Below, one piece after another: positions 11 through 44,338 of a stretch of DNA of 44,338 nt; within the stretch, counting starts at the first letter, position 1, and the number at the start of each line of letters is the position of its first letter. Source of the DNA: Candidatus Methylomirabilota bacterium (GTDB lineage Bacteria; Methylomirabilota; Methylomirabilia; Rokubacteriales; CSP1-6); assembly GCA_036002485.1 (NCBI GenBank), contig DASYTI010000221.1, forward strand, positions 1 through 44,338. Reading direction: 5' to 3'. Both the position numbers and the translations under genes were made by a program. The notes beneath the pieces were generated by a model. The model worked only from the letters and a program-made list of their open reading frames with translations. It did not search any database and was not told the origin of the DNA.

Positions 11-104
11 CTCCCCCTCACCCTGCCCTCTCCCCCATTGGGGGAGAGGGATTTGAAGGAAGCTCATCCCTCTCCCCCGTCGCGGGGGAGAGGGTAGGGT
101 GAGG
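11..104. repeat. Pair of REP-like palindromes, head to head
   Basis: Two copies of the family palindrome (core CCCTCTCCCC-loop-GGGGAGAGGG) lie at about 26-50 and 67-94. The left copy carries the tail ctcaccctg on its left and the right copy carries tagggtgag on its right. The pair therefore forms a larger imperfect inverted repeat, as in clustered REP elements. It sits just upstream of the first gene and could fold into one long hairpin in the mRNA. Other copies are at 3306, 27105, 40869, 43098 and 43433. Confidence 0.8.
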
Positions 105-40868: not shown

Positions 40869-40966
40869 CCCCCCCCTGCCCTCTCCCCCGACGCGGGGGA
40901 GAGGGCCGCTCTTCGAGCTAAGACGCTCGCCTCGAGCGGCGAGGCGAGGGCTGAGTGAATGAGGGG
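40869..40966. repeat. Composite REP element with second hairpin
   Basis: The palindrome CCCTCTCCCC...GGGGAGAGGG (40871-40915) is followed by a conserved tail (ttcgagct..agacgct, a small hairpin gcctcgagcggcgaggc, then gagggctgagtgaatgagggg). The same composite occurs at 43433-43518. The whole lies between the binding-protein start and the dehydrogenase stop. Confidence 0.8.
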
Positions 40967-42084: not shown

Positions 42085-43035
42085 TCAGCTGTAGCGAATG
42101 CGGGGATCGAGCCAGCTGTAGAGGAGATCGACGGCGAGGTTGATCATCATGAACAGCGCCGCGATGAAGAGGATGGTGCTCTGGGTCAGCGGGTAGTCGC
42201 GCTGATAGATGGACCAGAGGACGAGCCGGCCGATGCCGGGAAGGGTGAAGACTTCCTCTACCACCACGGCCCCGCCGAGCAGGATGCCCATCTGGAGCCC
42301 GGCCACCGTGACGATGGGGATGAGGGCGTTCCGGAGCGCGTGCTTGAGGATGACGGCGCCCGTGGCGAGCCCCTTGGCCGTGGCCGTGCGGATGTACTCG
42401 GAACGAAGCACGTCGAGCATGCACGCGCGCGTGGTCCGCGCGATATTCGCTGCGGCCGCCGTGCCGAGGCAGATGGCGGGCAAGGCCATGATGGTCAGGT
42501 TGCCCCGCGGGCTCGTGACGAAGTCGACCCACACCACGGACGGCATCCACCGCAGGTAGAGCGAGAAGAACAGGATGAGCATGGTCCCCTGCCAGAAGAC
42601 AGGCACGGAGAGGCCGAGGAGGGTGCCGATGCGGGTGACATTGTCGAGGGTGCCGTCGCGTCGGGTGGCCGAGACGATGCCCGCCGCCATGCCGAGGAGG
42701 AGCGAGAAGGCCACGGCCAGGCAGGTCAGCTCGAGCGTCACGGGCAGCCGCTCGAGAATGAGGGAGAGCACGGGCTTGCCCGTGCGCCACGAGGTGCCGA
42801 GATCGCCGTGGGCGAGCTGGCCCATCCACCGCCCGTACTGGACATACCAGGGCTGATCGAGCCCGAAGAAGCGCGTGAGCTGGGCGACCATGGCGGGGCT
42901 GGCGATGGCGTCGGCGCCGATCATCTGCTCCACGACCGTGCCGGGCACGAGCCGCAGCATGAGAAAGACGAGCAGGGTCAGCCCCAGGAGCGTCAGGGCC
43001 ATCGAGTACAGCCGGACGACCAGATACCGAGTCAT
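42085..43035 (-). CDS. Dipeptide-type ABC permease (DppB-like)
   Basis: The 316-residue membrane protein starts MTRYLVVRLYSMALTLLGLT with the typical first helix. The coupling loop is in LDVLRSEYIRTATAKGLA, and GAVVVEEVFTLPGIGRLVLW is a DppB hallmark. It forms one half of a heterodimeric inner-membrane channel; its DppC partner and the ATPases are not in the window. Its gene start is 527 bases from the upstream binding-protein stop, across a hairpin array. Confidence 0.93.
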   Translation of the reverse strand: MTRYLVVRLYSMALTLLGLTLLVFLMLRLVPGTVVEQMIGADAIASPAMVAQLTRFFGLDQPWYVQYGRWMGQLAHGDLGTSWRTGKPVLSLILERLPVTLELTCLAVAFSLLLGMAAGIVSATRRDGTLDNVTRIGTLLGLSVPVFWQGTMLILFFSLYLRWMPSVVWVDFVTSPRGNLTIMALPAICLGTAAAANIARTTRACMLDVLRSEYIRTATAKGLATGAVILKHALRNALIPIVTVAGLQMGILLGGAVVVEEVFTLPGIGRLVLWSIYQRDYPLTQSTILFIAALFMMINLAVDLLYSWLDPRIRYS

Positions 43036-43120
43036 TCAGCGCCGTGCCAAGGCAGCAATGCTCTCTCATCTTCGCTGGCTCTGACGCTCGAGGACCACCC
43101 CTTACCCTGCCCTCTCCCCT

Positions 43121-43444
43121 GAGGGGAGAGGGATATCAAATGCGAGGGCAGCGCCCCTTTTATCCCCCACCCCTGAGGGGAGAGGGATATCAAGTGCGAG
43201 GGCAGCGCCCCTTTTATCCCCCACCCCTGAGGGGAGAGGGATATCCAATGCGGGGGCAGCGCCCCTTTTATCCCCCACCCCTGAGGGGAGAGGGATATCC
43301 AATGCGGGGGCAGGGCCCCTTGTGTCCCCCCCTCCTGAGGGGAGAGGGAGATCAAACGCGGGAGCTGTGCCCCTTTCATCCCCCCCTCCTGAGGGGAGAG
43401 GGAGATCAAACGCGGGAGCCGTGCCCCTTTCATCCCTCTCCCCC
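43121..43444. repeat. Six-unit, 54-bp tandem array of REP-like hairpins
   Basis: The motif gaggggagag recurs at 43121, 43175, 43229, 43283, 43337 and 43391, exactly 54 bases apart. Units 1-4 share the stretch gggatatc(c/a)a(a/g)tgcg(a/g)gggcag; units 5 and 6 differ together (gggagatcaaacgcgggag). Each unit carries half of the palindrome at each end, so every junction can fold. There are no unique spacers, so it is not CRISPR. Confidence 0.9.
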
Positions 43445-43518
43445 ATCGGGGGAGAGGGACGCAGTTCGAGCCGAGACGCTGCCCTGAGCGACGAGGCGAG
43501 GGCTGAGTGAATGAGGGG
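43433..43518. repeat. Composite REP element, second copy
   Basis: Palindrome plus the tail with ttcgagccgagacgct, gagcgacgaggcgag and ggctgagtgaatgagggg, matching 40869-40966. It closes the tandem array on the side of the binding-protein gene. Confidence 0.8.
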
Positions 43519-43561
43519 GCAGCCGGCTCGCCCCGCGCCGCCGCTCTCTCTTCACGCGGCA

Positions 43562-44338
43562 TCAGGCCTTGTCGAGCCAGACGTCCTCGAAGCTGTAGAG
43601 CAACGTCGTGGGGTGTTGCTTGAAGCCCTTGACCGAGGCCTGGGTGAAATCGATCCGGTCGGCCGAGAAAAGCCAGAGGTGGGGCACGTTCTCGAGAATC
43701 AGGAGCTGGACGCGGTCGTAGATCTCCTTGCGCTTCTTCTGATCCATGGTGCGCCGGCCCAGCTCGAGCGCGGCGTCGACCTCCGGCACGCTCCAGGAGT
43801 TCCAGTTCTGCCCCTTGGTCGAGTGCAGGGCCCGGAAAAAGGCCGTGTCCGGATCGGCGTATCCCGGCGTGGTGTTCATGGTCATGTCGAAGTCGTGAGC
43901 GAGCCACCGCTTGATCCAGATGGCGTACTCCACGTTCTCGATCTCCATGGTGATGCCGATGCGCTTGAGGTGAGCGGCAATGACAGGGGCGCCCGAGACC
44001 ATGGTGGGGAAGGTGGGGATGACGGAGCACTTGATGGTGAAGCCCGAGGCGACGCCCGCGTCGGCCATGAGCTTCTTGGCTCGGTCGAGATCGGGCTTGT
44101 AGTAGCGCATCCACTGCTCTTCCGGCAGCTGCCACTGCTTCATGGGCGCGGTGGCGGGGGCGGTCAGTCGACCGAACCCGGCGGCGGCCACGCGCAGCAC
44201 CTGGCTCCGGTCCACGGCCCAGGAGATGGCCTGGCGCACGCGGACGTCCTTGAGCGGGCCGCGGGTGGCGTTGATATTGAGGTAGTCGTAGCCGAGGCGC
44301 GAGCTGCGATAGCCCGTGAGCGTCTTCTCGTCCTTGAG
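43562..44338 (-). CDS. Peptide-type ABC substrate-binding protein (SBP_bac_5), 5' end missing
   Basis: At least 259 residues of the C-terminal half are present; the frame is open to the window edge. GYDYLNINATRGPLKDVRVRQAISWAVDR and LPEEQWMRYYKPDLDRAKKLMADAGV are typical of domain III of family 5 binding proteins, with MNTTPGYADPDTAFFRALHST and LLILENVPHLWLF after it. It is the first visible gene of the leftward run towards the permease. It differs in sequence from the second binding protein at 39286, so the locus has two. Confidence 0.9.
   Translation of the reverse strand, partial: LKDEKTLTGYRSSRLGYDYLNINATRGPLKDVRVRQAISWAVDRSQVLRVAAAGFGRLTAPATAPMKQWQLPEEQWMRYYKPDLDRAKKLMADAGVASGFTIKCSVIPTFPTMVSGAPVIAAHLKRIGITMEIENVEYAIWIKRWLAHDFDMTMNTTPGYADPDTAFFRALHSTKGQNWNSWSVPEVDAALELGRRTMDQKKRKEIYDRVQLLILENVPHLWLFSADRIDFTQASVKGFKQHPTTLLYSFEDVWLDKA

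Follow-up and report, generated by a model that had tools for sequence, protein, structure and literature searches.

Several kinds of short palindromic repeats have been described in bacteria. TM_ECO, an intrastrand triplex motif, was reported from 262 proteobacterial genomes and linked with instability (Holder et al., 2015; PMC4666352). In Enterobacter sp. 638, the palindrome CCCTCTCCCXX(X)GGGAGAGGG is present in about 100 copies, often duplicated or triplicated near gene ends (PMC2869309). REPIN clusters are sometimes reiterated in tandem together with flanking DNA (PMC3116915, PMC3733652). In E. coli, differential mRNA decay favouring the binding protein has been documented for malE and other substrate-binding protein (SBP) genes (PMC5927463). 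Here we describe a tandem array of palindromes that separates an SBP gene from a permease gene in a Candidatus Methylomirabilota bacterium (genome G000, 4.45 Mb). It lies in a contig of 44,338 nucleotides, the whole of which was analysed and is called the window below.

The array occupies 43110-43458 on the minus strand and consists of seven palindromes alternating with six 31-bp spacers, at a period of 54. Read along the operon strand, it starts with palindrome P1 (25 bp), followed by six repeats of a 31-bp spacer plus a 23-bp palindrome, the last of which is P7. Tandem Repeats Finder returned 43116-43459 with period 54, 6.3 copies, 91% matches and 0% indels, confirming the exact 54-bp phasing proposed in the initial annotation; the manually parsed limits reach slightly beyond the 43121-43444 given there. 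P1, on the SBP side (43434-43458, CCCTCTCCCCCATCGGGGGAGAGGG), has perfect 11-bp arms, and P7, on the permease side (43110-43132, CCCTCTCCCCTGAGGGGAGAGGG), has perfect 10-bp arms within its 23 bp. In the five inner palindromes the CCCTCTCCCC arm is kept and the opposite arm is altered to GGGGTGGGGG or GGAGGGGGGG. The earlier statement that a GC-rich palindrome sits at every unit boundary is therefore true of the outer two and only loosely true of the inner five, which are imperfect on one arm. CCCTCTCCCC was counted 19 times in the window against 0.43 expected, far above chance.

The two sequence subtypes recognised earlier were also recovered. The subtype B block (43326-43433, minus strand) comprises spacers 1-2 with palindromes P2-P3, and the subtype A block (43133-43325, minus strand) comprises spacers 3-6 with P4-P6. 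Units 1 and 2 differ at 1 of 54 positions, while they differ from units 3-6 at 9-11. The mean number of differences between units was 4.2 for adjacent and 8.6 for non-adjacent pairs. That neighbouring units are most alike fits the expectation from stepwise local duplication, and together with the single base separating units 1 and 2 it supports the recent block duplication suggested before. The array sits between two ends of different kinds in a composite element at 43098-43519, whose limits were set by comparison with dispersed genomic copies and with the orthologous site of the nearest relative, G004. The short end (43098-43109, CCCCTTACCCTG) reads CAGGGTAAGGGG on the minus strand, which is the third-strand segment of a triplex-like motif. 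The long end (43459-43519), about 60 bp of ACGCAGTTCGAGCC...GGCTGAGTGAATGAGGGGG, contains an inverted repeat of its own. Palindromes, ends and the composite element are given without strand.

Both flanking genes lie on the minus strand, in agreement with the leftward transporter operon of the initial annotation. Upstream of the array is the 3' part of an SBP_bac_5 gene (43562-44338; Pfam PF00496, 5.8e-30), which encodes a peptide-type binding protein of 533 aa in all. Its 5' part is on contig C169, and the gene was joined via an overlap of 141 identical bases (window 44198-44338 = C169 2870-3010); on C169 the SBP_bac_5 gene follows close behind a gene judged by eye to be a DppC-like permease gene. 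Downstream is a BPD_transp_1 (DppB-type) permease gene (42085-43035; Pfam PF00528, 2.4e-35). Beyond it, also leftward, are a zinc-type alcohol dehydrogenase gene and then a second SBP gene, and between these two, in the same cluster, lies another palindrome of the family with a long end (40879-40905). Rfam gave no match within the window.

The palindrome belongs to a dispersed family. The pattern CCCTCTCCC-N0-14-GGGAGAGGG occurs 343 times in this genome, compared with 11 times in a reversed control. In an 804 kb sample of the genome, 77 of 83 palindromes were outside predicted genes against 19% expected; genes were predicted with a simple codon-based script, which correctly recovered the window genes near the array. 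A placement bias towards gene 3' ends was weak (divergent 5.6%, tandem 13.7%, convergent 16.9%; p = 0.049). Family palindromes mostly have AT on their inner side, and their outer ends recur in two forms: a short CAGGGTGAGGGG and a long one of about 60 bp starting with CCGCAGTTCGAGC. The TTCGAG-type long end was carried by 39 of the 206 sampled oriented palindromes. From sequence comparison, the basic unit is two hairpins that face inward and enclose a variable spacer, and it can carry one end of each kind. A typical doublet of adjacent family palindromes, 17 bp apart, is seen at the contig start (window 26-94). Another array of G000, on contig C147 (L120 1906-2205; 47 bp x 6.4), lies between divergent VOC-type and substrate-binding protein genes. 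This array and the dehydrogenase-side element at 40879-40905 indicate that the family has no preference for SBP genes.

The array represents a known kind of palindromic repeat in a tandemly expanded form. Compared with TM_ECO (PMC4666352), the 9-nt arms CCCTCTCCC/GGGAGAGGG are identical and are followed downstream by a third strand GGGTGAGGG. Both repeats are intergenic, occur in many copies and form inverted-orientation pairs, and TM_ECO loci were reported there to be unstable. P1 and P7 consist of an exact C-rich arm CCCTCNCCC, a loop and an exact G-rich arm GGGNGAGGG. There are also differences: the first loop here is often 7 nt, as in P1, with longer arms, the second loop is mostly 2 nt (CA, TA) where TM_ECO has 3, and the inner units do not have a third strand. 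Instead of the 3-nt second loop and second GGGNGAGGG of strict TM_ECO, this locus has CA followed by GGGTAAGGG, that is, a 2-nt loop and one mismatch, and one arm of each inner palindrome is degenerate when set against the TM_ECO arms. A relaxed TM_ECO pattern with an N2-3 second loop was found 221 times in G000, mostly with 2-nt loops, and 0 times in controls; it is patchy among relatives. The Enterobacter sp. 638 repeat has the same palindrome, but its loops are 2-3 nt where they are mostly 5 or 7 nt here, and no 54-bp phased array was described in that study (PMC2869309). Likewise, no account of palindrome and spacer expanding together in tandem was found for TM_ECO in the available sections of PMC4666352, nor were phased tandem arrays of the motif found described in the open-access literature, which does report the palindrome.

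REPINs and BIMEs share with this element two inverted palindromes around a spacer, an extragenic location and tandem reiteration (PMC3116915, PMC3733652), and the family as a whole is, like REPs, short, extragenic and of high copy number (343 against 11 in the control; 77/83 outside genes). The element might be a REP/REPIN class member spread by a RAYT (Y1) transposase, its tandem clusters comparable to those of Pseudomonas, and the doublet around a variable spacer matches such clusters (PMC3116915, PMC3733652). Furthermore, among genomes of the host's taxonomic family, Y1 genes were present in 9 of 18 with triplex-like motifs versus 2 of 30 without (p = 0.001), an association that we treat as no more than a lead, since the statistics ignore relatedness. 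However, the sequence is unrelated to REPIN/BIME sequences, the tetranucleotides that mark REP ends were rare among the 206 sampled oriented palindromes (GTAG 1/206, CGTC 1/206), and no PF01797 (Y1_Tnp) match was found in G000, which is 95.7% complete and has the most copies. Of 20 Y1 loci examined in relatives, only 1, that of G055, had a full palindrome near the gene, at a distance of a few hundred bases at most. In that genome the single triplex-like motif counted (L294, 939-971) is separated by about 100 bp from the end of a RAYT-like Y1 gene (1071-2030). Mobilisation of this kind is unlikely, and the REP-like nature assumed in the initial annotation was not supported: with GTAG in 1/206 palindromes and no RAYT in the genome, the sequence is of the CCCTCTCCC/TM_ECO type.

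The history of the site can be traced in part through its orthologues. In G004, which belongs to the same genus, the same site has P1, one spacer and P2, with a 79-bp core that is 90% identical. The SBP-permease gene pair is conserved among relatives of the same taxonomic family, and no such palindrome was found in the 18 other orthologous gaps, which measure -6 to 126 bp and usually less than 50. One unit in G004 and palindrome-free gaps in the 18 others indicate a lineage-specific insertion within which the array grew. The initial annotation had named fewer or more units between the same flanks as the sign of active expansion, and one unit in G004 versus six here, with the same flanking genes, is such a difference. 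We therefore read the array, with a probability of roughly 0.78, as a lineage-specific copy of the dispersed palindromic repeat that inserted between the SBP and permease genes and expanded from one to six units in this genome. Observed directly are the dispersed family with its intergenic bias, the one-unit state of the sister genome, the lack of such a palindrome at this site in the other relatives examined and the likeness of neighbouring units. At the G004 site (L055, ~1470-1690) the long and short ends have traded places around the core in comparison with window 43098-43519, and the order P1, spacer, P2 is kept. This suggests an inversion or exchange at the palindromes, and the site history is thus more complex than one insertion plus duplications.

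The number of units in G000 rests on one draft assembly of 253 contigs, and the array is ~0.9 kb from a contig end, where a collapsed or expanded repeat could be an artefact of assembly. Nevertheless, all six spacers are different, which makes a simple assembly loop unlikely, and other arrays as well as a second orthologous pair behave alike, so that such an artefact is very improbable. In the second pair, contig C129 of G002 (L122 1905-2185) carries about 7 palindromes where contig C125 of G001 (L311 ~2583) carries a single one. The flanks there are 93% and 89% identical, and the locus is behind a laccase-like gene (by eye).

How the expanded element arose can be proposed in a few steps. Two CCCTCTCCC...GGGAGAGGG hairpins in face-to-face orientation, with a spacer between them, would have inserted between the SBP and permease genes in a recent ancestor. 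In the G000 lineage, the insertion would then have gone from one spacer unit to six, and slipped pairing or unequal exchange between two palindromes may have duplicated palindrome and spacer together, a mechanism that we infer. Duplication between the palindromes flanking a spacer would produce a unit of exactly 23 + 31 = 54 bp, and the edges of the array at 43110-43458 are clean at palindromes. Recombination at palindromes also seems to have occurred, as the swapped ends of G000 and G004 would suggest. Clean palindrome edges were also considered as a universal rule of arrays, and this failed: by the test applied here, only 19 of 62 arrays elsewhere had them on both sides. Since many arrays are not cleanly bounded by palindromes, slippage between palindromes would not be the sole route.

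Further arrays were found in G000, G002 and G006 with periods of 47, 41, 46/35, 41 and 64 bp and unrelated spacers. GTDB genomes were scanned for three GGGGAGAGGG spaced 30-60 bp, and of 80 loci examined among the matches listed, 75 were tandem arrays with at least 3 motifs and periods of 28-172 bp. Hosts among the matches listed were Enterobacteria, Cyanobacteria, Planctomycetota, Chloroflexi, Verrucomicrobia, Myxococcota and others; because these loci were chosen by pattern, they show breadth and not enrichment. A broader possibility is that the CCCTCTCCC/GGGAGAGGG palindrome, perhaps via a replication-stalling triplex, seeds phased arrays from adjacent sequence across phyla and would be a general birthplace of minisatellites. 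We offer this idea tentatively and consider it doubtful. A test of it on too small a sample gave 4/14 long-period arrays in 0.8 Mb, and 2/12 without two chosen contigs.

As to the function of the array, we considered termination or attenuation of transcription between the two genes, and the authors of the Enterobacter sp. 638 study presumed termination by this palindrome where it sits at gene ends (PMC2869309). However, the array has no terminator-like site on either strand and no U tract follows the sense hairpins; the single regional match of the terminator scan (42973-42986) is outside the array. The gene pair is moreover conserved and adjacent in relatives, making this function quite improbable. 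The promoter scan gave no match within the array. A protein-coding repeat was rejected: frames stay open across the array as 54 is a multiple of 3, and they scored -0.14 to -0.46 per-codon log-odds against a mean of +0.38 for genes, with no Pfam match.

The predicted sense RNA fold of the array was -226.9 kcal/mol (z = -7.46; antisense z = -6.1), and the inner palindromes folded better in sense (-14.6 to -14.8 kcal/mol) than in antisense (-10.0 to -10.6 kcal/mol). Such strong sense structure makes a higher stability of the SBP mRNA relative to the permease mRNA plausible. Given transcription through the operon, the long series of GC hairpins that follows the SBP coding sequence would slow 3'-to-5' exonucleases on the polycistronic mRNA, and the SBP mRNA would somewhat outlast that of the permease. 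The situation resembles the malE-malF intergenic structure of E. coli in having structured RNA between SBP and permease genes, here a predicted one (PMC5927463). However, this array belongs to another sequence family and is not conserved in orthologous operons. By analogy with malE-malF, more hairpins might have been favoured for the binding protein:permease ratio that they would set. The position behind the SBP gene, the stable predicted sense fold, the better folding of the inner palindromes in sense and the decay documented in E. coli (PMC5927463) would all be in line with a selected device. On the other hand, the array is absent in 18 orthologous operons, family members occur in intergenic regions of every kind, a further array is flanked by divergent genes, and the asymmetry between sense and antisense depends on very few substitutions. 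We thus consider selection for regulation improbable. A differential decay of the two mRNAs is plausible as a by-product of the structure predicted here, and not as the reason for the element's presence, because orthologous operons do without the array and members of the family are spread over diverse intergenic sites. As 18 relatives retain the gene pair without the palindrome, the array is dispensable to the operon, and relatives with one copy or none suggest a recently grown repeat and not a conserved control switch.

Returning to the expanded repeat, two before-and-after cases (G004 versus G000, G001 versus G002) each lead from the known palindrome to a phased array, and the spacers of the two arrays differ. 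Together with the pattern scan over many phyla, they make the link between motif and instability testable at defined sites. The operon itself occurs naturally with no element, with one unit and with six units, a series in which an effect of intercistronic hairpins on the SBP:permease ratio could be examined. If the palindrome does seed arrays, the length of intergenic arrays could change fast and alter operon balance.
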